Positions 5,949-63,355 of a stretch of 64,000 nucleotides of DNA are shown here, piece after piece. The stretch is from Pseudomonadota bacterium (lineage in GTDB: Bacteria > Pseudomonadota > Alphaproteobacteria > Acetobacterales > Acetobacteraceae). The notes beneath the pieces were generated by a model that was given only the letters and a program-made list of their open reading frames with translations, had not been told where the DNA came from and did no database searches. Every line of letters starts with the position of its first letter. Position 1 is the first letter of the stretch. The position numbers and the translations under genes were made by a program. The DNA is taken from contig JAJZES010000006.1 in NCBI GenBank assembly GCA_021845985.1, positions 62,001 through 126,000 of the forward strand, given 5' to 3'.

Positions 5949-6083
5949 TCAGCCGGTCATTCCGTGATGCGCCATCTTCACCATGGCAATGGCGTAAAAC
6001 AGCGCCGCCATCGCCAGCAGCACCACCAGCATGGCGATGTTGCGCCCGCGCCGCCGCCGGGCCAGCGTTTCCTCGGGCGTCAT
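5949..6083 (-). CDS. 44-residue single-pass membrane protein of the cox operon (CoxF-like)
   Basis: This small gene encodes [18 protein letters not shown]... and ends ...KMAHHGMTG. It has a short basic N-terminus with four consecutive arginines, one membrane segment (about residues 16-36), and a short tail. Small MTPEE-type proteins of this design are found between ctaB and ctaG in many alphaproteobacteria and are usually annotated as hypothetical or CoxF-like. Its start overlaps the ctaB stop by one base (TGATG at 6081-6085), and ctaG follows 6 bases after its stop. A start at 6095 (MDRLMTPEE) is possible but less like the family. A role in oxidase assembly or stability is inferred from position alone. 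Confidence 0.75.
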   Translation of the reverse strand: MTPEETLARRRRGRNIAMLVVLLAMAALFYAIAMVKMAHHGMTG

Positions 6084-7048
6084 CAGCCGATCCATCCGGC
6101 CAGCAGCCGATCGACCGCCAGCGCCCCGAACAGCACGAACAGATACAGCAGGGAGTAGCGGAACAGCGCCTTGGCCGGCGCATCATGCGTCAGGCTGCGT
6201 CCGGCGCCGTCCTGCCGGTCGCGCAGCACCCGCCATGCACCGAACAGGAACCAGCCGCCCAGCGCCACCGCCGCCGCGCCATACAGCGGTCCGGCCAGAT
6301 GCAGCGCCCACGGCATCACCCCGAGCGGCGCCAGCAGCGCGGTGTAGATCATCACCTGCCGGCGTGTTGCCCTGGCGCCGGCGACCACCGGCAGCATCGG
6401 CACGCCGGCGCGTTCATAATCGCCATGCGCCCACAGCGACAGCGACCAGAAATGCGGCGGCGTCCAGACGAACACGATGGCGAACAGCAGCAGCGGCAGC
6501 ACATCGACCCCGCCGGTCACCGCCGCCCAGCCGATCAGCGGCGGAAACGCGCCGGCGGCGCCGCCGATGACGATGTTCTGCGGCGTGCGGCGCTTCAGCC
6601 ACATCGTATAGACGAAAACATAGAAGGCGATCGACCCGGCGAGCAGCCCGGCGGCCACCGTGTTGGTGGCCAACCCCATCAGCAGCACCGAGAAGATGGC
6701 GAGGGTGACGCCGAACCCCAGCGCCTGCCCCGGCGCGATCCGCCCGGCCGGGATCGGCCGCTTGGCGGTGCGCCGCATCTTGGCGTCGATGTCGCGATCG
6801 TACCACATGTTGATGGCGCCGGCGGCGCCGGCGGCAACGGCAATGCACAGCACCGCGGTCAGCGCCAGGACAGGATTGAGGTGGCCCGGCGCCACCAGCA
6901 GCCCGACCAGCCCGGTGAACACCACCAACACCACCACGCGCGGTTTGAGCAGAGTCAACCAGTCGCCGGCCGAAGAGGCGCCGATATCGGTGGCGGTAGA
7001 AAACGCCATTCCCGGCGCGTCGGCCAGCGCTGCGGCAGTCTGGTCCAT
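6083..7048 (-). CDS. ctaB: Protoheme IX farnesyltransferase (heme O synthase)
   Basis: CtaB/CyoE is an inner-membrane UbiA-family prenyltransferase that farnesylates heme b to heme O, the precursor of heme A for the aa3 oxidase. The 321-residue product has about nine membrane helices and both prenyl-diphosphate-binding loops: [20 protein letters not shown], and a second conserved region around [18 protein letters not shown] 7048 is chosen because it follows TTAGGACG at suitable spacing. The in-frame TTG at 7063 lacks such a site. It is downstream of ctaD across a 144-base gap with a strong hairpin, and it overlaps the small membrane protein gene. Confidence 0.95.
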
Positions 7049-7192: not shown

Positions 7193-8809
<1,617 letters not shown>

Positions 8810-8855
8810 GCTGCGTCTCCTGTGGGCGCCGCTGCGGGCGTCACACGCACTGGTC

Positions 8856-9713
8856 TCACTGGTGGATATCCGCGGCGGCGATCTTTGCCGGATCGGCCGG
8901 CGGATTGGCGGCGAACTTGGTCTTGGCCTGTTGCACCCAGGCGTCGAAATCGGCGGGCGCCACGGCCTCGATCGAGATCGGCATGAAGCTGTGGTTGGTG
9001 CCGCAGATCTGGTTGCATTCGCCGTAATAATGCCCCGGCTTGTCGATGCGCACCCAGGTCTCGATGGTGCGGCCAGGAATGGCGTAGCGCTGCACCCCGA
9101 GGCTCGGGATGAAGAAGCTGTGGATCACGTCGCCGCTGGTCTCGATGATGCGGATATTCTTGCCCACCGGCAGCACCAGCGGATTATCCACGTCAAGCAG
9201 CCTGTGCTGGCCCGGCTTGAGGTCGGCGTCCTTGACGTAATAGCTGGTGAAATCGACGTTGCCGTGGTCGGGGTAGGTGTATTCCCAGTACCACTGATGG
9301 CCGGTCACCTTGATCGTCATGTCGGCGTGCTCGGTGCGGTCTTCAAAATACACCAGCCGGAAGCTCGGAATGACGATGATCGCCAGGATCAGCACCGGCA
9401 CCACCGTCCAGGCGATCTCCAGCAGCGTGTGGTGGCTGGTGCGGCTGGCCACCGGATTACGCTTGCTGTCAAAGCGCACCATTACCCAGATCAACAGCGC
9501 ACCGACGAACAGGGTGATCAGGGTGATGATCCAGAGCACCAGCGAATGCAGGCTCTCGATCTCGGCCTGCACCGGACTGTGCGCCGCCTGAAAACCCATT
9601 TGCCACGGGTGCGGCATTTGTGCCGCGGCGTCGCCGGCGAATGCCAGCGCCCCCCCGCAAGTCGTGGCGAACGCGGCAGCAAGCCGCCGGAGTAGCTGCA
9701 TCGGCCGATCCAT
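8856..9713 (-). CDS. ctaC: Cytochrome c oxidase subunit II
   Basis: Subunit II accepts electrons from cytochrome c at the binuclear CuA centre. The 285-residue protein has a signal peptide ending near AGDAAAQ, two membrane helices (about residues 50-110), and a periplasmic cupredoxin domain. That domain carries the aromatic electron-entry stretch [12 protein letters not shown] and the CuA ligands [12 protein letters not shown] (C-x3-C-x3-H-x2-M) plus the upstream VIHSFF histidine. ATG 9713 (MDRPMQLL) is chosen; ATG 9701 is also possible. It heads the oxidase gene set. The 72-base gap upstream contains a GGCCCGCGCGGGCC palindrome (9732-9745). Confidence 0.95.
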
Positions 9714-9785
9714 CCCGCTGAGATGCCGCACGGCCCGCGCGGGCCTGCGGTGCAGCAAATGGGCTACAAGACGCTCACGTCGAGA

Positions 9786-11066
9786 TCAAGCCCCCGTAAA
9801 GCCATCTTTACGCTGCACCAGCCCGGCGGCGCGCGCGCCCGACAGAAACGCGCCGCCAACGGTGCCGGCCAGCCCGTCCATGCACCACGCTTCGCCGGCG
9901 ATAACGAGGCCGGCGCCGATCGGCGCAGCCATCGCCGCGCGTGCCGCCATGCAGCCCGGTCGGGCATAGGCGTAGGCGCCGAGGAAAGCCGGATTGGTCC
10001 CCCAGTCGCTCAGCACCGCCGGCCCCAGCGGCGGCGCGCCGCCGAGCAGCCGGGCCAGTTCGGCGCGCGCGAACGCCTCGGTCGCCGCCGGCCCTGCCGC
10101 CGCCAGCGCCCAGGCCGCCCGCCCGCCGAAGAAGCTGACGATGTGGTCCTGGCCGAGCGGGCGGGAAAAAAACATCGCCCGCTCGCCGGCATCGGCGACG
10201 CGATGATAGAGCGAGGTGCCGGCCGGCAGCAGCGGCGTCGGACCCGCGGCGATGCCCAGCTTGCTCAGCAACCCCATCGGCAGCCCGTCCAGCGCCGCCC
10301 GCGCCGCCTCGGGCAGCGCCGGCGTGAAGCCGATGCCACCGGCACGCAGCACCCCGGTCGAGACGGTGACGATGCAGGCGCCGGCGCTGTGCGTGCCGGC
10401 GCCGGTGGTGATCGCGACGCCGCCGCCCGGCCGGTCCCAGGCGACATGGCGCACCGGGGTCGCCAGATGCAGCGTCGCGGGCGGCGGCGCCAGCACCCGC
10501 GCGACCATCGCGCCGACGCCGCCGGCGACGGCCAGGTTGCCGCCGGTGAGTTCGTTGAGATGCCAGTCCTGCACGCTGAACTCGCGCGGATCGGCGGCGG
10601 CGATCAGGGTCGCTTGCCAGGTCTCGACCAGCGGCAGCCAGGGGTCGCCGCGCAGCCCGGCCACCGCCTCGGCGACGCTCGCATCCGGCCCGGCGGCGGC
10701 GCGAGCGCGGGCGAGGCGCTCGAAGCGCTCGCTGGTCGCCTGATAGGCGGCGAGCTCGGCCTCGGTCGCCGCCCAGCCGTCGAGCATGATGCGCCGCGTC
10801 CAGCTTCCCTCGGTCGCGCGCAGGCCGATGCCGGCGGCGCGCGCCAGCGGCGCCAGCGGGTTGCGGTCGGCGGCGTGCAGCCAGGAGGCGCCGAGGTCGA
10901 ACGGCGCGCCGCCCAGCGCCGCCGGATGGTCGGTGAAGGCGCGCCCGCCGATGCGTGGCAGCGCCTCGAACAGCACCGGCCGCCGCCCCGCCGCACGCAG
11001 CGCCGCCGCCGCCGACAGCCCGGCGACCCCGGCGCCGACGATGGCGACGTCAATGTCAAAGCTCAT
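9786..11066 (-). CDS. FAD-dependent amine oxidase / NAD(P)-binding oxidoreductase
   Basis: The 426-residue protein begins with a classic dinucleotide-binding fold (VAIVGAGVAGLSAAAAL, then an E at the strand-2 end) and the flavin amine oxidase motif GGRAFTDHP. It ends with the FAD-closing segment LVIAGEAWCMDGLAGTVGGAF. This matches the flavin-containing amine oxidase family (polyamine or monoamine oxidase type, PF01593). The substrate is unknown, and there is no signal peptide. Its ATG overlaps the yacG stop in an ATGA, making it the last member of the infA-maf-rng-yacG chain. This is an unexpected partner for translation and RNA genes. Confidence 0.82.
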   Translation of the reverse strand: MSFDIDVAIVGAGVAGLSAAAALRAAGRRPVLFEALPRIGGRAFTDHPAALGGAPFDLGASWLHAADRNPLAPLARAAGIGLRATEGSWTRRIMLDGWAATEAELAAYQATSERFERLARARAAAGPDASVAEAVAGLRGDPWLPLVETWQATLIAAADPREFSVQDWHLNELTGGNLAVAGGVGAMVARVLAPPPATLHLATPVRHVAWDRPGGGVAITTGAGTHSAGACIVTVSTGVLRAGGIGFTPALPEAARAALDGLPMGLLSKLGIAAGPTPLLPAGTSLYHRVADAGERAMFFSRPLGQDHIVSFFGGRAAWALAAAGPAATEAFARAELARLLGGAPPLGPAVLSDWGTNPAFLGAYAYARPGCMAARAAMAAPIGAGLVIAGEAWCMDGLAGTVGGAFLSGARAAGLVQRKDGFTGA

Positions 11067-53316: not shown

Positions 53317-54252
53317 CTACAGCGCCAGCTTCAGCCGGTTACCGAGTTCGCCGATGATGCCGCGCCGGAAGGCCAGCACGCAGAGGACGAAAATGGCGCC
53401 CTGCGTCACCGTCACCCAGTCGCCGAACTGCGCCAGATAGGTCTCCAGCGCGCCGAACAGCAGCGCCCCCATGACCGGGCCGAAAATCGTGCCGATCCCG
53501 CCGATCAGCGTCATCAGGATGACCTCGCCCGACATCGACCAGTGCACGTCGGTCAGCGTGGCGATGCCGAAGACCTGGCTCTTGGCGCCGCCGGCGATGC
53601 CGGCCAGCGCCGCCGACAGCACGAAGGCCAGAAGTTTGTAGTCATCGACGCGGTAGCCGAGCGAAATCGCCCGCGGCTCGTTCTCGCGGATCGCCTGGAG
53701 GACCTGCCCGAACGGCGAATGGATGATGCGGTGGATCAGCAGGAAGCCGATCAGGAATACCGCCGCGATCACCCAGTACAGCGCCATGTCGTTCTGCATC
53801 GGGATGACCCCGAACAGGGGCGAGCGGGGCACCTGCTGGATGCCGTCCTCGCCGCCGGTGAAGGACGCTTCGAGGCAAAAGAAATAGACCATCTGCGACA
53901 AGGCGAGCGTGATCATGGCGAAGTAGATGCCCTGCCGGCGGATCGCCAGCCAGCCGACGACGAGGCCGAGCACGCCGCCGGTAGCACCACCGGAGAGGAT
54001 CGCCAGCTCGCTGGAAAAATGCCAGTTCTTCGCCGTCCATGCGGCGACGTAGCTGCCCATGCCGAAATACGCGGCGTGGCCGAAGCTGAGCAGGCCGACA
54101 TAGCCGATCAGCAGGTTGAAGGCGCTGGCGAACAGGCCGAAGCACAGCACCTTCATCAGGAACACTGGATAGAGCACCGCCGGCGCGACGATGATGATGG
54201 CGATCATGGCGACCAGCGCCGACGCCTGCGCGCGGGTGAAGCCGAGCATCAT
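53317..54252 (-). CDS. livM: Branched-chain amino acid-type ABC transporter permease LivM
   Basis: The 311-residue protein has about nine membrane helices and the LivM signature: ASAFNLLIGYVGLLSFGHAAYFGMGSYVAAW, RRQGIYFAMITLALSQMVYF, RSPFGQVLQAIRENEPRAISLGY (cytoplasmic coupling loop) and IGGIGTIFGPVMGALLF. It forms the channel with LivH. It is the last gene of the transporter operon, beginning one base after the livH stop. ATG 54252 and 54249 are both usable. HAAT-family systems also carry urea, amides and other ligands. Confidence 0.93.
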   Translation of the reverse strand: MMLGFTRAQASALVAMIAIIIVAPAVLYPVFLMKVLCFGLFASAFNLLIGYVGLLSFGHAAYFGMGSYVAAWTAKNWHFSSELAILSGGATGGVLGLVVGWLAIRRQGIYFAMITLALSQMVYFFCLEASFTGGEDGIQQVPRSPLFGVIPMQNDMALYWVIAAVFLIGFLLIHRIIHSPFGQVLQAIRENEPRAISLGYRVDDYKLLAFVLSAALAGIAGGAKSQVFGIATLTDVHWSMSGEVILMTLIGGIGTIFGPVMGALLFGALETYLAQFGDWVTVTQGAIFVLCVLAFRRGIIGELGNRLKLAL

Positions 54253-54253
54253 G

Positions 54254-55141
54254 CTACGCCGCCTTTCCGAACAAACCGGCCGGCCGCAGCAGCAGCACGA
54301 TGACCATGACGACGAAGATCACCGTTGCCGAACCCTCGGGGTAATACACTTTGGTCAGCCCCTCGATGATGCCGAGGCCGAAGCCGGTGATGATCGACCC
54401 AAGAATCGATCCCATGCCGCCGATGACGACGACGGCGAACACGACGATGATGAGATTGGTGCCCATGTTGGGGTTGACCGAGTTCATCGGCGCCGCCAGC
54501 ACGCCGCCAAACGCCGCCAGCGCCGCCCCGGCGGCGTAGGTCAGCGTCACCATGCGCGGCACGTTGACGCCGAACGCCTGCACCAGCGGCGCATTTTCGG
54601 TCGCCGCCCGCAGCAGCGCACCGAGCCGGGTGCGCTCGATCACCAGCCACACCGCCAGACACATGACGGCGGCGGCGATCACCACCCAGGCGCGGTAGCG
54701 CGGCAGCACCATGAAGCCGAGATTGACCGCTCCGGACAGCGCCTCGGGGATCGCGTACGGGACACCGGAGGAGCCGAACTGATTGCGCATCAGCCCTTCG
54801 ATGACCAGCGCGCAACCGAAGGTCAGCAGCAGCCCATAGAGCGGGTCGAGGCCGGCGAGGCGGCGGATGAGTGTTCGCTGCATCACCGCGCCCAGCACGC
54901 CGATTACCAGCGGCGCCAGCACCAGTGACGGCCAGTAGCCGATGCCGAGATAGGTCAGCAGCCCCCAGGTGACGAAGGCGCCAAGCATGAACAGCGCGCC
55001 ATGGGCGAAATTGACGACATTGAGCAGCCCGAAAATCACCGCCAGCCCGAGCGAGAGCAGCGCGTAGAACGCGCCGTTGATCAGCCCGAGCGTCAACTGA
55101 CCGTAGAGCAGGATAAGCGGTTTGCCGAAAATCATCACCAT
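54254..55141 (-). CDS. livH: Branched-chain amino acid-type ABC transporter permease LivH
   Basis: This is a 295-residue inner-membrane permease with LivH features: QLTLGLINGAFYALLSLGLAVIFGLLNVVNFAHGALFMLGAF at the start, RTRLGALLRAATENAPLVQAFGVNVPRMVTLTYAAGAALAAFGGVL in the middle, and VVIGGMGSILGSIITGFGLGIIEGL near the end. It follows the second substrate-binding protein gene by 31 bases and precedes livM. Initiation at ATG 55141 has an AGGAG about 10 bases upstream. Confidence 0.93.
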   Translation of the reverse strand: MVMIFGKPLILLYGQLTLGLINGAFYALLSLGLAVIFGLLNVVNFAHGALFMLGAFVTWGLLTYLGIGYWPSLVLAPLVIGVLGAVMQRTLIRRLAGLDPLYGLLLTFGCALVIEGLMRNQFGSSGVPYAIPEALSGAVNLGFMVLPRYRAWVVIAAAVMCLAVWLVIERTRLGALLRAATENAPLVQAFGVNVPRMVTLTYAAGAALAAFGGVLAAPMNSVNPNMGTNLIIVVFAVVVIGGMGSILGSIITGFGLGIIEGLTKVYYPEGSATVIFVVMVIVLLLRPAGLFGKAA

Positions 55142-55172
55142 GCGGGAGAGGCTCCTGTGAGCGCCGAACGCA

Positions 55173-56381
55173 TCAGGTTTTCACGAAATAGCAGCCGCCC
55201 TCGCTGAGCGGGCGCCACGCCTCATCGGCCGGCGTGGTGTGCACGGTCTTGTAGTAGTCCCATGGACCTTTGCTCTCGGCCGGCGTCTTGACCTGGAACA
55301 GGTAGCTCGGGACCATCAGCAGCCCGTCCTCGCGGATATAGGCCTTGCCAAAACAATCGTCGTCGGTCGGCATCGCCTTCATGCGGTTGACGATGGCGGT
55401 GCCGCTGCGCTTTGCCTCGGCGATGCCGAGATCCTGCACCGCCTTGAGGAAGTGCAGCGTGCCGGCATAGCAGCCGGCATGGATCATGTTTGGCCAGTTG
55501 TTCGGCGTCTTCGGCCGCACCCGGTCGGTGAAGGCGCGGGTGCGGTCGTTGAGATCCCAGTAGAAACTTTCGGTCAGGGTCAGCCCCTGCGCCACCGGCA
55601 GCCCGAGCGCGTGGACGTCGGTGATGAACATCAGCATCGCCGCGATCTTGGCGGTCCAGCCGAATTCATGCGCCTGCTTGATGCTGTTGACGGTGTCGGC
55701 GCCGGCGTTGCACAGACCGAGCACCTTCGCCCCGGTCGACTGCGCCTGCAGCAGGAAGGCGGAAAAATCGCTGGTGCCGGGAAACGGATAGGACGAGGCG
55801 CCGAGCACACGGCCACCTTCCAGCTCGATGAAATGCGTTGCGTCACGCTGCAGCTGGTGGCCGAAGACATAGTCCGCGGTGATGAAATACCAAGTGTCGC
55901 CGCCCGCCTTGACCGTCGATCCGCCGGTCGATTTCGACAGCATGTAGGTGTCGTACGACCAGTGGACGATTGACGGCGCGCATTGCTTGCCGGTCAGATC
56001 GGCGGTCGCGGCGCCGACGTTGACGTAGGCCTTGTCTTTCTCCTTGGCGACGGCGCCGACGGCGAGGCCGACCGAGGAGGTAGGCACGTCGATGATCATA
56101 TCGACGCCTTCGCGGTCATACCATTGCCGGGCGATGCCGGCGCCGATGTCGGGCTTGTTCTGATGATCGGCGGCGATGACATCGACGTCGAAGCCGCGCG
56201 CGGCGAACTCCTGCACCGCCTGACGCGCGCAGATGACCGAGGTCAGACCCCCGGTATCGCGATACGGACCCGACTGGTCGTTCAGCACGCCGATACGGAT
56301 TTTCGCCGTCTGGGCCCGCGCCCGCAGCGGCAGCGCCGCGACCGCAGCGCCACCCAGCAGCATCCGACGTGATACGGTCAC
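55173..56381 (-). CDS. ABC transporter substrate-binding protein (Leu/Ile/Val-binding family), copy A
   Basis: The 402-residue periplasmic protein starts with a Tat-like signal (MTVSRRMLLGGAAVAALPLRARAQ) and a type I periplasmic binding fold: IRIGVLNDQSGPYRDTGG, ADHQNKPDIGAGIARQWYDREGVDMIID, YDTYMLSKSTGG, FPGTSDFSAFLLQAQSTGAKVLGLCNAGADTVN. The family binds amino acids, urea, amides or aromatic acids. The GTG at 56381 has GGAGG 7 bases upstream. It is strongly similar along its length to the next gene upstream (copy B), so the two are tandem duplicates with probably different ligands. Confidence 0.92.
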   Translation of the reverse strand: MTVSRRMLLGGAAVAALPLRARAQTAKIRIGVLNDQSGPYRDTGGLTSVICARQAVQEFAARGFDVDVIAADHQNKPDIGAGIARQWYDREGVDMIIDVPTSSVGLAVGAVAKEKDKAYVNVGAATADLTGKQCAPSIVHWSYDTYMLSKSTGGSTVKAGGDTWYFITADYVFGHQLQRDATHFIELEGGRVLGASSYPFPGTSDFSAFLLQAQSTGAKVLGLCNAGADTVNSIKQAHEFGWTAKIAAMLMFITDVHALGLPVAQGLTLTESFYWDLNDRTRAFTDRVRPKTPNNWPNMIHAGCYAGTLHFLKAVQDLGIAEAKRSGTAIVNRMKAMPTDDDCFGKAYIREDGLLMVPSYLFQVKTPAESKGPWDYYKTVHTTPADEAWRPLSEGGCYFVKT

Positions 56382-56412
56382 CGCATTCCTCCCTTTTTCG
56401 GCTGATTGAGGC

Positions 56413-57633
56413 TCAGCTTTTGACCAGCGGGCAGCCACCGTCCTTCATCGGCCGGAACGCCTCATCGGCCGGCGTGGTGGCGAGCAGCGTGTAGTAGTCC
56501 CAGGGCTTCTTGCTCTCGGCCGGCGTCTTGACCCTGAACAGATAGCACGGATGGAGCTTGCGCCCGTCTTCGCGGATCATGCCCTTGCCAAAGCAGTCAT
56601 CGTCGGTCGGCATCGCCTTCATGCGCGCGACGGTCGCCGCACCATCGGCCTTGGCCTGCGCCACGCCCATCTCGGCGGCGACTTTCATGTAGTGCAGGGC
56701 GGCGGAATAATCGCCGGCATGGCCCATGCCGGCGCGCACATTGGGCGCGCGCGCCCACAGCCGCTCGGAAAAGGCGCGGGCGCGATCGTTGAGATCCCAG
56801 TAGAAGGTGGATGAGATGACGAGGTTCTGCGCCACCTGCAGCCCCATGCCGTGCACGTCGGCGATGAACACCAGCAGCCCGGCCCGGGTCTGCGTCAGAC
56901 CGAACTCGGCGGCCTGCTTGATGCTGTTGACGGTGTCGGCGCCGGCATTGCAGAAGCCGACGACCTTCGCCCCGCTCGCCTGCGCCTGCAGCAGAAAACT
57001 GGAGAAATCATTGGTGCCGGGGAAGGGATAGGCGACCGAGCCGACCACCTTGCCGCCCGCCGCGTTGATGAACTGCGTCGTATCGCGCTGCAGCGCGTGG
57101 CCAAAGGCATAATCGGCGGTGATGAAGAACCACGAATCGCCGCCCGATTTCACCGTCGCGCCGCCAGTCGAGTGCGCCAGCATCCAGGTGTCGTAGGCCC
57201 AGTGGATGGTGTTGGCGTTGCAGTCCTTGCCGGTGAGATCGGAGGTCGCCGGGTTGCTCGGCAGGAAGACCTTGTTTTTCTCCTTGGCGACGCCGGCGAT
57301 GGCCAGCGACACGCCGGAATTGGGCACGTCGAGAATCACATCGACGCCATCCCGATCGAACCACTGGCGGGCAATGCCGGCGCCGACATCGGGCTTGTTC
57401 TGATGGTCGGCCTGGATCACCTCAACCGTCATGCCCTTGGCCGCGGCGCCGAAATCAGCCACCGCGAGACGGGCGCAGTCGCTCGCCAGCGGGCCGCCGA
57501 TATCCTTATACGGACCGGAAAGATCGGTCAGCACGCCGAACTTGATTGTCGGCGAAGCGGCGCGGGCGCGCACCGCGGGAAGCGCCACGGCAGCGGCAGC
57601 GGTGGCCATCAGGTGGCGGCGGGTGACGATCAT
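56413..57633 (-). CDS. ABC transporter substrate-binding protein (Leu/Ile/Val-binding family), copy B
   Basis: The 406-residue paralogue of copy A has a Tat-like signal (MIVTRRHLMATAAAAVALP), then IKFGVLTDLSGPYKDIGG, ADHQNKPDVGAGIARQWFDRDGVDVILDVPNS, YDTWMLAHSTGG, FPGTNDFSSFLLQAQASGAKVVGFCNAGADTVN and the shared C-terminal TPAESKKPWDYY. ATG 57633 is chosen because GGAG lies 6 bases upstream; ATG 57639 has the GGAG immediately adjacent, which is too close. Its position between livF and copy A shows both proteins serve the same permease. Confidence 0.92.
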   Translation of the reverse strand: MIVTRRHLMATAAAAVALPAVRARAASPTIKFGVLTDLSGPYKDIGGPLASDCARLAVADFGAAAKGMTVEVIQADHQNKPDVGAGIARQWFDRDGVDVILDVPNSGVSLAIAGVAKEKNKVFLPSNPATSDLTGKDCNANTIHWAYDTWMLAHSTGGATVKSGGDSWFFITADYAFGHALQRDTTQFINAAGGKVVGSVAYPFPGTNDFSSFLLQAQASGAKVVGFCNAGADTVNSIKQAAEFGLTQTRAGLLVFIADVHGMGLQVAQNLVISSTFYWDLNDRARAFSERLWARAPNVRAGMGHAGDYSAALHYMKVAAEMGVAQAKADGAATVARMKAMPTDDDCFGKGMIREDGRKLHPCYLFRVKTPAESKKPWDYYTLLATTPADEAFRPMKDGGCPLVKS

Positions 57634-57654
57634 GCGCATCTCCTTCGCTCCGGG

Positions 57655-58347
57655 TCAGACGCCCAGATATTCATGCAGCTTGCCCATGTTGGCGGCCAGA
57701 TCGGCATTCGGGATCATGTCGATGACCCGGCCGTGCTCCATCACGTAAAAGCGGTCGGCGACCGTCGCGGCAAAGCGGAAGTTCTGCTCGACCAGCAGCA
57801 CGGTGAAGCCGCGCGCCTTGATCTCGCGGATCGTGCGGCCGATCTGCTGGACGATCACCGGCGCCAGTCCCTCGGTCGGTTCGTCGAGCATCAGCAGCCG
57901 CGCCCCGGTGCGCAGGATGCGCGCAATCGCCAGCATCTGCTGTTCGCCGCCCGACAGCCGGGTGCCCTGGCTGCGGGCGCGTTCCTTGAGGTTGGGAAAC
58001 AGCGTGTGCAGCGTCGGGATGTCGAGGCCGCCCGGCGCGATCACCGGCGGCAGCACGAGATTTTCGGCCACCGACAGCGAGGCGAAAATCCCCCGCTCCT
58101 CGGGGCACAACGCAATGCCGGCGCGGGCGATGAGGTCCGACCGCTGGCGGATCGTTTCTCGCCCGCCATAGAGCACGCTGCCCTCGCGGCGCGGCACCAG
58201 CCCCATGATCGATTTCAGCGTCGTCGTCTTGCCGGCGCCGTTGCGGCCAAGCAACGTGACCACCTCGCCTTGCGCCACGTCGAAATCGACACCATGCAGG
58301 ATATGGCTCTCACCGTACCAGGCATTGAGGCCGCGCACCTGCAGCAT
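57655..58347 (-). CDS. livF: Branched-chain amino acid-type ABC transporter ATP-binding protein LivF
   Basis: The 230-residue ATPase has MLQVRGLNAWYGESHILHGVDF, Walker A GRNGAGKTTTLKSIMG, a Q-loop region with LIARAGIALCPEERGIFASLSV (the EDR/EER-IF motif typical of LivF), signature LSGGEQQMLAIAR and Walker B LLMLDEPTEGL. The start is uncertain. ATG 58347 has GGAGG ten bases upstream and fits family N-termini. ATG 58413 would add a 22-residue Gly/Glu-rich stretch and overlap livG by 8 bases. It is the second gene of the operon. Confidence 0.93.
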   Translation of the reverse strand: MLQVRGLNAWYGESHILHGVDFDVAQGEVVTLLGRNGAGKTTTLKSIMGLVPRREGSVLYGGRETIRQRSDLIARAGIALCPEERGIFASLSVAENLVLPPVIAPGGLDIPTLHTLFPNLKERARSQGTRLSGGEQQMLAIARILRTGARLLMLDEPTEGLAPVIVQQIGRTIREIKARGFTVLLVEQNFRFAATVADRFYVMEHGRVIDMIPNADLAANMGKLHEYLGV

Positions 58348-58405
58348 CGCACCCCCGCCTCCACCTTCGCCGCTGCCCCCACCTTCGCCCGCGTCGTCGC
58401 CCCCG

Positions 58406-59200
58406 TCACGCATGCGCGGCGCTCGCCGGGTCGGGATTGGCGGCGTCGGCAGGCGCGTCGGTGCCGAGATAGGCGGCAATCACCTCGGGATTGCGCGAAA
58501 CGGTGGCGTAATCACCCTCCGCCAGCACCCGGCCGCGGGTCAGCACGGTGATGTGGTCGCATAATCCCTCGACCACCGACAGATTGTGCTCGACCATCAA
58601 AATGGTGCGGCCCTGCCGCACGCGACGGATCAGTGCCACGATGCGATCGACATCGGCATGCGTCATCCCGGCGGTCGGTTCGTCGAGCAGCATCATCTCC
58701 GGGTCCAGCGCCAGCGTGGTGGCAATCTCCAGCGCCCGCTTGCGGCCGTAGGCGAGCTGCCCGGCCTGCGTCTCGGCAAATTCCGCCAGCCCCACCTCGT
58801 CGAGCAGTTCGGCGGCCCGGGCGTTGTAGATGTCCAGCACCTTCGCCCCGCGCCAGAAGTCGAAACTGCCGCCGCGGGCGCGCTGCAGCGCCAGCCGCAC
58901 ATTCTGCAGCGCCGTCAGGTGGCTGAACACCGCCGAGATCTGGAAACTCCGCACCAGACCCAGCCGCGCCACATGCGCCGGCTGGGCACCGGTGATGTCG
59001 CGCCCCTTGAAACGGATGGTCCCGCGCGTCGGCGCCAGGAACTTGGTCAACAGATTGAAACACGTCGTCTTCCCGGCCCCGTTGGGGCCGATCAGCGCAT
59101 GGATCGTGCCCGCAGCGACGCGCAGCCCGACGCCGTTGACGGCGATGAAGCCACGGAACTCCCGCGTCAGTCCCTCAGTTTCGAGGATGGGGTCGGACAC
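58406..59200 (-). CDS. livG: Branched-chain amino acid-type ABC transporter ATP-binding protein LivG
   Basis: The 264-residue ATPase has Walker A GPNGAGKTTCFNLLT, the LivG-specific RLGLVRSFQISAVFSHLTALQNV, LAYGRKRALEIATTLAL in place of the usual LSGGQ signature (typical for LivG), and Walker B MMLLDEPTAGMTHADVDR. GTG 59200 follows GGAGGG at good spacing. It is the first gene of the livG-livF-SBP-SBP-livH-livM operon. The 84 bases upstream (59201-59284) separate it from the GH15 gene and show no obvious promoter. Confidence 0.93.
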   Translation of the reverse strand: MSDPILETEGLTREFRGFIAVNGVGLRVAAGTIHALIGPNGAGKTTCFNLLTKFLAPTRGTIRFKGRDITGAQPAHVARLGLVRSFQISAVFSHLTALQNVRLALQRARGGSFDFWRGAKVLDIYNARAAELLDEVGLAEFAETQAGQLAYGRKRALEIATTLALDPEMMLLDEPTAGMTHADVDRIVALIRRVRQGRTILMVEHNLSVVEGLCDHITVLTRGRVLAEGDYATVSRNPEVIAAYLGTDAPADAANPDPASAAHA

Positions 59201-59284
59201 CCCGGAACCCTCCCGGCCATTGTCATTGGCGCGTTGCTTCGCACGCGCCGGCCCGGCGCACAAGACCACAACCGGCGCCCGCGC

Positions 59285-61527: not shown

Positions 61528-61596
61528 GGGACACCCATTACCAGCGTACGGATTCAACCTTCGCCTCAAATGAGGGCCGTCGGCGGCCGGTGCAAC

Positions 61597-61632
61597 GGCC
61601 GGGCGGCGTCACGGTTGCGACGCCGCCCGGCC
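61597..61632 (-). terminator. Perfect 14-bp hairpin after the HD-domain gene
   Basis: GGCCGGGCGGCGTC (61597-61610) pairs perfectly with GACGCCGCCCGGCC (61619-61632) across ACGGTTGC, 11 bases past the stop of the HD-domain gene on the minus strand. No T-tract follows. It is probably the 3' end of the two-gene oxygenase unit. Confidence 0.5.
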
Positions 61633-61643
61633 GGTCTGGTCGC

Positions 61644-62243
61644 TCAGACCGGCGGCAGCCCGACCACGCGGCCGGTCTGTAGCACAGCTTCATCATAGGC
61701 GTGGCGCGCGAACACCCGCTCGACCAGCGGCGCGAACCGCTCCAGCGCCTCGGTCGGATAGTCCGGGTCGAACGAGCACTGGTCCCAGCGATGGCAGAAG
61801 GCGACGCAGGCCGGGTAGAACGGGCTATCGCGGTATTTTTCGCGCTCCAGCGGGTTCCAGCCGTAATGCTCGGCGTAATAGACCATCTGGAACGCGCCGT
61901 GATGCGCCACCACCCAGGCGCATTCGTCGCGCACGAACGGGCGCAACAGTTCGGCGGCGAAGCGGTCATGGTTCTGCGGCGCCAGCCCGTCGCCGATGTC
62001 GTGCAGCAGCGCGGCGACGATCCAGTCCTCGTCCGCCCCGTCGCGCCACGCCCGCGTCGCCGATTGCAGCGCGTGATCGAGCCTGGTGATGCGGTAGCCC
62101 TCGAACGTCTCGTCCGCCTGACGGCGCAGTTCGCGCAGCACCCGCCCGGCGGTGCCGGCCAGATGCGGCTTCTCCAGCCGCTGCAGCAGCAGGTATTCGT
62201 CGCGTGTGCCGTCCGCCATGTGGGCGAAGCTGACCTGTTCCAT
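61644..62243 (-). CDS. HD-domain oxygenase-like protein (PhnZ/TmpB-related)
   Basis: The 199-residue protein has the HD-domain metal set of di-iron oxygenases: His57 (RLDHALQ), His81-Asp82 (LLHDIGD), His92 (QNHDR), His114/115 (VAHHGAF) and Asp154 (RWDQCSFDPDY). The 24-residue spacing of the first two matches PhnZ (His34/His58). PhnZ and TmpB cleave 1-hydroxyphosphonates with O2 to an acid and phosphate. The positions equivalent to PhnZ Tyr24 and Glu27 are Phe47 and Tyr50, so substrate gating differs. It is coupled to the upstream oxygenase gene (TGATG, or GTGA if GTG 62246 is used). The family is assigned confidently, the substrate is not. Confidence 0.75.
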   Translation of the reverse strand: MEQVSFAHMADGTRDEYLLLQRLEKPHLAGTAGRVLRELRRQADETFEGYRITRLDHALQSATRAWRDGADEDWIVAALLHDIGDGLAPQNHDRFAAELLRPFVRDECAWVVAHHGAFQMVYYAEHYGWNPLEREKYRDSPFYPACVAFCHRWDQCSFDPDYPTEALERFAPLVERVFARHAYDEAVLQTGRVVGLPPV

Positions 62244-63355
62244 CACTCGGCCGCCTGTTCCAGCGCCGGGGCGCGTTTGAGCACCCGATACAGGCTGCGC
62301 GGACCATCGATGTCAATGTAGCAGCCCTGGAGATGCCGCGGTCCCTCCTGCGGGTCAAAGCCGGTGCGGCCATGCAGCAGGCGGCGGTTGTCGAACATCA
62401 CGCAGTCGCCGTCCTGCAGCAGGAAACGGATGGCGAATTCGGGCGCCCGCAGCATCTGGTCGAACCGCCGCCGGGCACGATAGAACGCCTCCAGTTCGGC
62501 CTCGTCGAGCAGCGGCACGTAATCGAGCCGCGGGCTGAAGCGGATGCCGACGATCTCGCCGGTGACGCTGCATTCGATCATCGGCGCGTGATCGGTCAGC
62601 GCCGTCGCCGGATCGGTGTATTGGAAGCGCACCGGCACCGTGCACAGCAGGCGGTAGCCCTCCGGGTCGCGCGCCCGCATCGCCGCGGCGACGGTGACGC
62701 CATCGACCAGCGTGGAATATCCGCCGGTCGAGCGGTTGACCAGGCAGTGCAGCAATTGCACCCCCGGCATCGGGTCGCGATACGGGTTGTCGTTATGGGC
62801 GTCGAGCGGCAGGCCGGTATAGGCGAGGTCGATCGGCTGCGGCACCGAGCGCACGTCGAACATGATGCCGAAATTGGTGTCGCGCGGGAAGCCGAAGCGG
62901 CGCGCCACCGCCAGCACCTGCCCCTCCTCGGAGGGCACGCCGCGCAGGATGACGAAGCCGAGCCGCAGCAGCGGCTCGACCAGCGGCAGCATTCCCTCCG
63001 GCCCCGGCGGCCAGGCGCGGATCGGCAGCGGCGCGAGGTCGCCCGACCACGGGTCGCGCGGCGGCAGCCCGGCATCGGGCGCCGCCTCCGCCAGCAGTCT
63101 CGCCGCCACATAGTCTATGCGCGCCCCGTCGCTGAACAGCACGCGCCAGGATTGCGCCGTCAGCGGCGTCACCTCGCGCACGGCGAGGTCGGCCGGCAGG
63201 TCGGACGGATCGTAGAGGCGCTGGCCGTTCACCGGGTCGAGGCTGGCCGGATCCTCGGCCCGCTCGCGCAGCCACAGCGGATGGATCGGCCGCACTGTTC
63301 CGTCGTCCTGCACCACCTGAAGGCCGGGGCGGGTCGGGATCGGCTCGATGCGCAT
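62243..63355 (-). CDS. TauD/gamma-butyrobetaine-hydroxylase-like Fe(II)/2-oxoglutarate oxygenase (TmpA-like)
   Basis: The 370-residue protein has the two-domain GBBH layout: an N-terminal DUF971-like domain (RPIHPLWLRERAEDPASLDPVNGQRLYDPSDLP) and a TauD barrel. The iron ligands are in PLDAHNDNPYRDPMPGVQLLHC (H-x-D), with the distal His in NRRLLHGRTGF. The zinc-binding cysteines found in carnitine-pathway GBBH are absent from the N-terminal domain. Adjacency to an HD-domain oxygenase is the arrangement of tmpA-tmpB, where TmpA hydroxylates 2-(trimethylamino)ethylphosphonate. ATG 63355 follows GAGGACC. The function is a reasoned guess; the enzyme class is secure. Confidence 0.8.
   Translation of the reverse strand: MRIEPIPTRPGLQVVQDDGTVRPIHPLWLRERAEDPASLDPVNGQRLYDPSDLPADLAVREVTPLTAQSWRVLFSDGARIDYVAARLLAEAAPDAGLPPRDPWSGDLAPLPIRAWPPGPEGMLPLVEPLLRLGFVILRGVPSEEGQVLAVARRFGFPRDTNFGIMFDVRSVPQPIDLAYTGLPLDAHNDNPYRDPMPGVQLLHCLVNRSTGGYSTLVDGVTVAAAMRARDPEGYRLLCTVPVRFQYTDPATALTDHAPMIECSVTGEIVGIRFSPRLDYVPLLDEAELEAFYRARRRFDQMLRAPEFAIRFLLQDGDCVMFDNRRLLHGRTGFDPQEGPRHLQGCYIDIDGPRSLYRVLKRAPALEQAAE

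Follow-up and report, generated by a model that had tools for sequence, protein, structure and literature searches.

The 64,000-nucleotide stretch of DNA analysed here (the window) carries two overlapping minus-strand genes, a TauD-family ORF followed by an HD-domain ORF, whose products probably form a two-step oxidative catabolic module for a quaternary-ammonium, non-phosphonate substrate, a reading held with moderate confidence. In the first step, the TauD protein would use Fe(II), 2-oxoglutarate (2OG) and O2 to hydroxylate a carbon of a substrate whose trimethylammonium (or similar onium) group would be held in an aromatic cage. In the second, a mixed-valent di-iron site in the HD protein, with a second O2, would cleave the bond adjacent to the newly formed C-OH by chemistry like that of PhnZ, TmpB and MIOX, and the product would probably enter a butyrobetaine, carnitine or glycine-betaine route. 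Because the two proteins lie on separate branches, have changed active sites and have relatives that are sometimes found near carnitine or choline genes, the substrate is probably carnitine- or choline-like. A phosphonate appears less likely from the sequences, since both partners have changed together at the positions that would hold one. An earlier note on this DNA, which took organophosphonate catabolism as its main reading, had also allowed for substrates other than 2-trimethylaminoethylphosphonate; among these a non-phosphonate compound stands as possible, while another hydroxyphosphonate is less likely.

The TauD gene (62243..63355, minus strand) begins with ATG at 63355 and encodes a 370-residue Fe(II)/2-oxoglutarate oxygenase of the TauD/GBBH superfamily, belonging to a 'D-type' group; the HD gene (61644..62243, minus strand) encodes a 199-residue HD-domain protein that is predicted to be a di-iron oxygenase. 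Inspection of sequence and ORFs found the pair to be real and coupled, in line with the earlier note. The TauD stop and the HD start overlap at 62241..62246 (minus strand) by one shared base (TGATG), which is a sign of translational coupling. A GTG at 62246 offers an alternative HD start; the ATG was used, as homologues begin there (M-x-x-V-x-F), so that residue numbering is the same as in the earlier note, with codons checked. An inverted repeat lacking a T run (61596..61633, minus strand; perfect 15-bp arms, 8-nt loop) lies 10 bases past the HD stop and may end the transcript; a promoter scan gave one promoter-like site, a terminator scan gave none, and Rfam at gathering scores gave no match across the window. 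A link of the pair to the downstream LIV-type ABC transporter or GH15 gene was rejected because a tblastn comparison with the nearest paired relative, the single relative compared, matched none of the seven downstream proteins within its 18-kb locus.

This layout resembles that of TmpA/TmpB from Leisingera caerulea, which catabolize 2-trimethylaminoethylphosphonate and likewise consist of a GBBH-like 2OG oxygenase followed by a protein of the HD oxygenase fold. The logic of hydroxylase plus HD oxygenase is shared with PhnY/PhnZ, which act on 2-aminoethylphosphonate, PhnY being of the PhyH type. One review names three HD-domain oxygenases, MIOX, PhnZ and TmpB (PMC8177086), and a later one adds PhoF, a fungal PhnY-PhnZ fusion (PMC10574752). 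Our search of the open-licence literature found no paper on the HD clade described here or on its pairing with a D-type TauD, a weak negative.

The TauD protein matches PF02668 (167 bits), and its AlphaFold model has a mean pLDDT of 94.0. The iron triad and the 2OG arginine are kept: His187, Asp189, His328 and Arg340 are invariant (41/41), the His187-x-Asp189 ligands lying at 62789..62797 (minus strand; codons checked). Phe162 and Phe166 (62858..62872, minus strand), with Tyr179 and Tyr346, form a predicted aromatic cage whose residue types match those in Pseudomonas BBOX, Phe184/Phe188/Tyr201/Tyr368 (PMC4736438). BBOX thus shares with this protein its fold, its 2OG and iron residues and its cage residue types, but differs in that BBOX Asn191, like TmpA Asn187, is replaced by Asp176 (62828..62830, minus strand; codon checked), at the place of TMLH Asp231. 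Two Asn of BBOX, including Asn191, bind the carboxylate (PMC4736438, PMC9296572), and both are replaced here, by Asp176 and Pro275. The TmpA phosphonate contacts, listed as Asn187, Asn287 and Arg288 in PMC9296572, correspond to Asp176, Pro275 and Arg276, so that one of the three is kept; the Asn287 position varies among TmpA-type TauDs too. In the tree, the window TauD falls in the D-type group, on a branch apart from the TmpA type; all 22 members carry Asp176, the residue by which the group is itself defined. Its best-scoring named model is NCBIfam TmpA NF049936, at 341.7 bits, below the cut-off of 400 and within the range of seven other D-type TauDs (304-358 bits), whereas three TmpA-type proteins scored 538-586. 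It also falls below the cut-offs of the GBBH model TIGR02409 (264 bits against 414.75) and the TMLH model TIGR02410 (146.1 against 268.3).

The HD protein (PF01966, 29.5 bits; AlphaFold mean pLDDT 97.2) has the complete di-iron ligand set that the earlier note had seen, and all six residues are the same in each of the 90 clade members aligned: His57 (62073..62075), His81-Asp82 (61998..62003), His92 (61968..61970), His115 (61887..61901, a span that includes the invariant Phe118-Gln119) and Asp154 (61782..61784), all on the minus strand with codons checked. The surroundings of this site differ from those in a reference set of eight PhnZ/TmpB sequences. Asp85 (61989..61991, minus strand; codon checked) is invariant in the clade; at this position the PhnZ/TmpB set carries a His, likewise without exception. 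The stretch F47-E48-G49-Y50 aligns with the Y-x-x-E of PhnZ/TmpB, described in PMC8177086 as a substrate loop, so that its Tyr and Glu are replaced by Phe47 and Tyr50, as the earlier note had aligned them; position 47 is variable in the clade, while Tyr50 is at least 90% conserved. The shorter spacing between the middle ligands was likewise borne out: ten residues separate Asp82 from His92, against 21 for the equivalent D60-H81 of the spacing reference, a TmpB (L023) that scores above its model cut-off. A second deletion, which the earlier note had not mentioned, leaves 39 residues between His115 and Asp154, against 57 in the PhnZ/TmpB comparison; Ser126, Leu130 and Gln133, which are invariant in the reference set, fall in this interval. 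The invariant Lys108 and Arg158 of that set are replaced by Gln119 and by His151, the latter at a position where the clade consensus is Glu. In PhnZ, Lys108 and Arg158 presumably have a role towards the phosphonate.

By fold, the HD protein sits among the known oxygenases: its model gave VIA-align Z scores of 17.4 with PhnZ, the closest solved fold, 16.3 with TmpB and 11.6 with MIOX, and every other listed structure scored 8.0 or less. By tree, it lies outside the PhnZ/TmpB clade, the eight PhnZ/TmpB rows splitting off on a branch of 4.09 with support 100/100. The earlier note's placement of the protein with the oxygenases therefore holds for the fold and not for the PhnZ/TmpB clade. Fold and ligand pattern suggest an HD-domain oxygenase with a mixed-valent di-iron site and O2-dependent cleavage. 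The protein scored below the cut-offs of the TmpB and PhnZ models (NF049941, 41.0 against 300 bits; TIGR03276, 46.3 against 214.6; NF052439, 32.3 against 300) and of Pfam MIOX PF05153 (18.1 bits; gathering score 25), the model of a stand-alone enzyme that acts on myo-inositol and has the same ligand pattern. That model is nonetheless matched at E<=0.01 by 56 of the 90 clade members. Since the scores are under the model cut-offs, membership in TmpA/TmpB, PhnZ, GBBH, TMLH or MIOX was rejected; the match to TmpA-TmpB proposed in the earlier note holds for the arrangement of the genes and not for the identity of either protein. Thus, the pair has in common with TmpA/TmpB a trimethylammonium cage (predicted here) and six di-iron ligands, but differs in the Asn-to-Asp change of TauD, in an HD protein without the YxxE loop, the invariant Lys and Arg and the Ser/Gln segment, in clade and in neighbours. 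In fifteen plasmid records, HD relatives were named HD domain-containing protein (3), phosphohydrolase (1), inositol oxygenase family protein (1) or hypothetical (1), or were unnamed (9).

The TauD and HD partners change together. An HD-clade gene directly follows a D-type TauD on the same strand in 14 of 22 typed cases, eight D-type TauDs have no HD gene within their short loci, and an HD of the PhnZ/TmpB type occurs at none of the 22. Of 14 TmpA-type TauDs, 12 directly precede such a PhnZ/TmpB-type gene. The rule has an exception, since one TmpA-type TauD adjoins an HD gene of the window's clade. The D-type counts are lower bounds, as Asp/Asn typing covered the best-scoring TauD matches (30 fetched places and those already in hand) and weaker matches were left untyped. 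Among 385 genomes sampled from the window's class, which named relatives indicate to be Alphaproteobacteria, the HD clade is present in 109, more than a quarter, and it also occurs in SAR11. It is found in 16 of 17 genomes with a D-type TauD against 93 of 368 others, while D-type TauD is not associated with PhnD (7/17 against 122/368). In raw odds ratios, which ignore genome size and kinship, the clade correlates with both PhnD-type genes (3.7) and carnitine dehydrogenase (8.4), so that, for the HD protein alone, co-occurrence does not distinguish use of phosphonates from use of carnitine. A 2OG oxygenase of one of two unrelated families, TauD or PhyH, stands beside the HD gene in 21 of 80 loci; in the other 59 neither lies within 1 kb on the same strand, at least 1.3 kb of upstream sequence being available in 76 of the 80.

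In three independent lineages the pair has choline, betaine or DMSP genes nearby, and in a fourth a GbdR-like regulator. A Pseudomonas plasmid has the order LysR, TauD, HD, choline binding protein, choline dehydrogenase and aldehyde dehydrogenase; Hellea has a BCCT transporter, TauD and HD; a marine lineage has DmdA-like, MFS, RidA-like, TauD and HD genes, with choline dehydrogenase 3.6 kb off. The GbdR-like regulator adjoins a TauD-HD-TauD array in another genome, where the TauD is Asp-type and the full cage is absent. In the window and in the nearest paired relative (L002/L135), no onium-compound gene was seen adjoining the pair. Gene calls in these neighbourhoods came from an in-house script that missed some, such as the HD and TauD of one locus (L179), and neighbour statements therefore rest on tblastn, HMM and annotated-record results. 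The host genome (98.93% complete) has a carnitine dehydrogenase above its model cut-off, in a run of BKACE-, carnitine dehydrogenase-, acyl-CoA dehydrogenase-, CoA ligase- and CaiD-like genes.

Several more specific or competing readings bear on the substrate. A tentative one is an O2-dependent shortcut, described in none of the papers that could be searched, for the use of carnitine-type compounds or trimethylated amino acids. In it, 2OG-dependent beta-hydroxylation would be followed by cleavage of the adjacent C-C bond by an HD di-iron oxygenase of a third type; the shortcut would replace an aldolase or dehydrogenase step and deliver butyrobetaine or glycine betaine. It is unlikely that TauD converts butyrobetaine to carnitine and that the HD protein acts on carnitine or a closely related compound, cleaving it oxidatively towards glycine betaine. 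An operon in which an HD-clade gene is flanked by BKACE and carnitine dehydrogenase genes occurs in 12 of 80 loci, and as none of these 12 genomes has a D-type TauD, the HD protein may find its substrate in the carnitine pathway. However, TauD misses the GBBH model and has Asp at the place of the carboxylate-binding Asn191, and the HD protein would be redundant in operons that already hold carnitine-route genes. These operons, with the 59 loci lacking TauD and PhyH, also indicate that the HD clade is not tied to the product of D-type TauD alone.

A specific version of the preferred reading, unlikely as it stands, makes TauD a bacterial trimethyllysine-type hydroxylase acting at C3 of a trimethylated amino acid, with the HD protein cleaving Calpha-Cbeta of the resulting hydroxy amino acid to give gamma-butyrobetaine and iminoglyoxylate. 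TMLH resembles the window TauD in having an aromatic cage and, where the pocket meets the substrate end, an Asp, although we know of no HD partner for TMLH. RidA acts on imines, and a RidA-like gene precedes TauD in one lineage; the retained Arg276 could hold the carboxylate, and the host carries the butyrobetaine/carnitine-type cluster. Asp176 occupies the place of TMLH Asp231, which, according to PMC7764450, is thought to bind the alpha-ammonium. Against this version are the low TMLH model score and the absence of D-type TauD from genomes with the HD gene in carnitine operons.

The main reading of the earlier note, in which the pair is a divergent phosphonate pathway for a different hydroxyphosphonate, is now improbable. 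It draws on TmpA as the best named model for TauD, on TmpB and PhnZ as the structures closest to the HD protein, on the retained Arg276, on the correlation of the clade with PhnD-type genes, on three weak PhnD-type matches in the host (53.6, 39.5 and 28 bits; Pfam cut-off 27) and on a PstS-family gene directly after the pair in one genus (L180, L181), which may point to a phosphorus role. However, both Tmp models are missed, the HD protein lies outside the PhnZ/TmpB clade, two of three TmpA contacts are replaced, Asp176 would face the phosphonate, and the invariant Lys, Arg and Ser/Gln segment are replaced or deleted. Neither PhnJ nor any other Phn-HD family match was found in the host genome, no phosphonate gene was seen beside the pair, as the earlier note had observed, D-type TauD shows no association with PhnD, and some relatives lie amid carnitine, choline or betaine genes. 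Least probable of all is that the HD protein is a phosphohydrolase or other hydrolase, with TauD acting alone and the gene overlap incidental: one plasmid relative is annotated 'phosphohydrolase' and at 59 of the 80 loci neither TauD nor PhyH is close to the HD gene, but the nearest folds are the oxygenases MIOX, PhnZ and TmpB, with a clear gap to the rest, and the 21 loci with TauD or PhyH repeat the pattern of TmpA/TmpB and PhnY/PhnZ.

The analysis shows a coupled gene pair with complete ligand sets, the fold class, the separate clades, the joint variation of the partners and a recurrent linkage to onium-compound genes in relatives; the oxygenase chemistry, the order of the two steps and the class of substrate are inferred from these. 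The earlier note was right to recognize a GBBH-like 2OG hydroxylase coupled to an HD protein of oxygenase type with an altered active site. That HD protein is one of a much larger clade that shares fold and ligands with the known HD oxygenases and differs from them in its pocket, and if such pairs were scored as phosphonate genes, phosphonate use would be overestimated. If the O2-dependent shortcut is real, the clade would be a large unrecognised oxygenase family. The identity of the substrate would show how the hydroxylase-plus-HD logic has been adapted to other compounds, which in soil and sea are probably of the carnitine or choline kind.

The TauD gene, encoding the 370-aa GBBH-like Fe(II)/2-oxoglutarate (2OG) oxygenase (62243-63355, minus strand; PF02668, 167.2 bits), and the gene for the 199-aa HD-domain protein, HD (61644-62243, minus strand; PF01966, 29.5 bits, its sole match at E<=0.001), form a pair in which one base is common to the TauD stop and the HD start (TGATG). 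A perfect, GC-rich 15-bp inverted repeat without a T run (61596-61633) is situated directly past the HD stop. The ligand sets of the pair are in place. The complete HD ligand set claimed in the earlier note was borne out (H57, H81, D82, H92, H115, and D154), PhnZ Tyr24 and Glu27 aligned with Phe47 and Tyr50 as proposed, and the reported shortening between the middle ligands was confirmed, with 10 residues from D82 to H92 where a TmpB relative has 21. The note had not mentioned a second deletion, which lies between H115 and D154.

Membership of the pair in the TmpA and TmpB families was not borne out by the tests run. The TmpA model gave TauD 341.7 bits (cut-off 400), the GBBH model 264 (414.75), and the TMLH model 146.1 (268.3), while HD reached 46.3, 41.0, and 32.3 bits with the NCBIfam models Phn-HD, TmpB, and PhnZ1 (cut-offs 214.6, 300, and 300), in matches spanning the N-terminal HD region only. 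In a tree of 102 rows, a branch 4.09 long (support 100/100) splits off the eight PhnZ/TmpB rows, leaving HD outside them. The separate clade to which HD belongs is large, with at least 556 confirmed candidates in a scan of public genomes and a member at E<=1e-20 in 109 of the 385 genomes sampled from the window's class. In an alignment of 90 members after filtering at 85% identity, among them five from plasmids, R54, H57, L79, H81, D82, G84, D85, H92, P102, H115, F118, Q119, R134, F149, C150, D154, F158, and D159 are invariant. Profile comparison with the eight PhnZ/TmpB-type sequences gave a probability of 99.1%, and the two groups are therefore homologous. Lys108, invariant in the eight-sequence set, aligns with Gln119 of HD, and the equally invariant Arg158 with His151, where the clade consensus is Glu; the segment bearing the invariant Ser and Gln of that set is missing. 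The structure model of HD (mean pLDDT 97.2) has an oxygenase-type fold, matching PhnZ (Z 17.4), TmpB (16.3), and MIOX (11.6), with the next matches at 8.0 and below. Its separate clade and these fold matches mark HD as a putative HD oxygenase of another type. A further HD family was seen at L012-L015 and L020, in genomes of which three belong to the window's genus, one to its family, and the fifth to a more distant organism, and the HDs of L012, L013, and L020 combine HDIS in place of HDIG with short middle spacing.

In residue type, the aromatic cage of TauD (Phe162, Phe166, Tyr179, and Tyr346) matches that of Pseudomonas BBOX. At the pocket end opposite the cage, Asp176 occupies the position of BBOX Asn191 and TmpA Asn187, TmpA Asn287 is replaced by Pro275, and Arg276 preserves TmpA Arg288; the roles of these TmpA residues follow PMC9296572. 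TmpA-type sequences carry Asn, Ser, or Ala at the Asn287 position, so Asp176 is the solid difference. According to PMC7764450, TMLH has Asp231 at this position, thought to hold the alpha-ammonium of trimethyllysine. In a tree of 42 TauDs, 22 with this Asp (D-type) form one group (support 92/92) and 14 with Asn (TmpA-type) another (97/86); three further Asp-bearing TauDs lack the full cage.

The TauD and HD clades vary together. When each TauD locus was scanned with profiles of both HD types, an HD of this clade directly followed TauD on the same strand in 14 of the 22 D-type loci, several of these pairs being close relatives of one another, with 298-327 bits for this clade's profile versus 40-64 for the PhnZ/TmpB profile; the remaining eight had no HD of either type. 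Twelve of the 14 TmpA-type TauDs were followed by a PhnZ/TmpB-type HD (219-321 versus 29-47 bits with this clade's profile). At L172 the scan found no HD, and the exception, L049, adjoins an HD of this clade in reversed gene order. Among the 385 genomes, with TauD typing covering best-scoring matches only and kinship ignored, the HD clade was present in 16/17 with a D-type TauD versus 93/368 without (Fisher p 1e-8).

Among the neighbours scanned, no informative neighbour of the pair was found in the window, its nearest paired relative (L135), or L184. A branched-chain/urea-type ABC transporter operon on the same strand as the pair (minus, 53317-59269) is absent from the 18-kb L135 locus. Two paralogous substrate-binding proteins are encoded side by side in it (55173-56438 and 56413-57639). 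Onium-compound neighbours recur among other relatives of the pair. On a Pseudomonas plasmid, LysR precedes TauD-HD, and the pair is followed by a choline binding protein that passes its cut-off at 457.7 bits, a choline dehydrogenase exceeding the PRK02106 cut-off (673.9 versus 732.1 for BetA), and an aldehyde dehydrogenase for which the BADH model gave 425 bits (cut-off 668.6). In Hellea, a BCCT transporter directly precedes TauD-HD (444.8 bits, over the TIGR00842 cut-off and under the betaine-specific one). A DmdA-like protein was found by tblastn in 4/4 loci of a marine lineage (L044, L045, L185, and L186); that of L045 scored 482.9 bits, over cut-off, and this locus also carries MFS, RidA-like, TauD, and HD genes, with a choline dehydrogenase, likewise over cut-off, at a distance of 3.6 kb. 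At L141, a GbdR-like regulator (252.7 bits; cut-off 480) adjoins TauD-HD-TauD (7270-10116). The two TauDs there differ: one is Asp-type but lacks the complete aromatic cage, and the other is divergent. Pointing the other way, a PstS-family protein follows the pair in L180 and L181, of one genus (160 and 157.3 bits; cut-off 206.6), and a divergent GMC oxidoreductase neighbours it in L182/L183.

Much of the HD clade occurs apart from TauD. Among the best 80 of at least 556 candidates, 76 of which offer at least 1.3 kb of upstream sequence, TauD or PhyH lay within 1 kb on the same strand in 21 loci and not in 59; a PhyH-family 2OG oxygenase was directly upstream of HD in 16, and BKACE upstream with carnitine dehydrogenase downstream in 12. 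No D-type TauD was found in the 12 genomes with a carnitine-operon HD, of which six have a TmpA-type TauD (three also another type) and six none at E<=1e-25. HD must therefore have substrates beyond the product of this TauD, or else its compound must be reached in other ways too. In SAR11-type genomes (L087, L088, L090, L098, L101, L105, and L106), HD occurs in a constant position, immediately behind a putatively purF-like gene of 493 aa, and no TauD or PhyH match was found in these loci. Class II aldolase genes directly precede HD in L030 (9208-9978; PF00596), L042 (4039-4794; by similarity), and L147 (5052-5849; as annotated). The L042 contig (CAMAXE010000037.1) bears a Klebsiella pneumoniae metagenome-bin label at 66% G+C and is probably mislabelled.

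In Mesorhizobium and relatives, HD lies between BKACE and carnitine dehydrogenase, whereas the window's own genome has a carnitine/butyrobetaine-type cluster (L204 7722-14008, contig C19) of BKACE-, carnitine dehydrogenase-, acyl-CoA dehydrogenase-, CoA ligase-, and CaiD-like genes without that HD. The genes of this cluster share 50-68% identity with their counterparts in the HD-bearing operons, and the host carnitine 3-dehydrogenase scores 682.6 bits, over cut-off. Upstream of the cluster lies a class II aldolase-like gene (L204, about 5994-6701) that is 61% identical to the L030 pre-HD gene. With kinship ignored, D-type TauD was enriched with carnitine dehydrogenase (7/17 versus 35/368, p 0.001) and not with PhnD (7/17 versus 122/368, p 0.6); HD considered by itself was associated with carnitine dehydrogenase (odds ratio 8.4) and also with PhnD (3.7).

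A trimethylated amino acid would fit the TauD pocket, judging from Asp176 and Arg276, and a carnitine-type compound fits the place of HD in carnitine operons; neither accounts for everything. A phosphonate substrate is less likely: neither PhnJ nor another Phn-HD match was found in the host genome, and its three PhnD-type matches are weak (53.6, 39.5, and 28 bits; Pfam cut-off 27), such matches occurring at E<=1e-20 in 129/385 sampled genomes. What survives of the TmpA-TmpB reading is the two-gene oxygenase logic: although a member of neither family by the tests run, the window's pair would work alike, with TauD hydroxylating a trimethylammonium substrate and HD then using O2 to cleave the bond adjoining the new hydroxyl.
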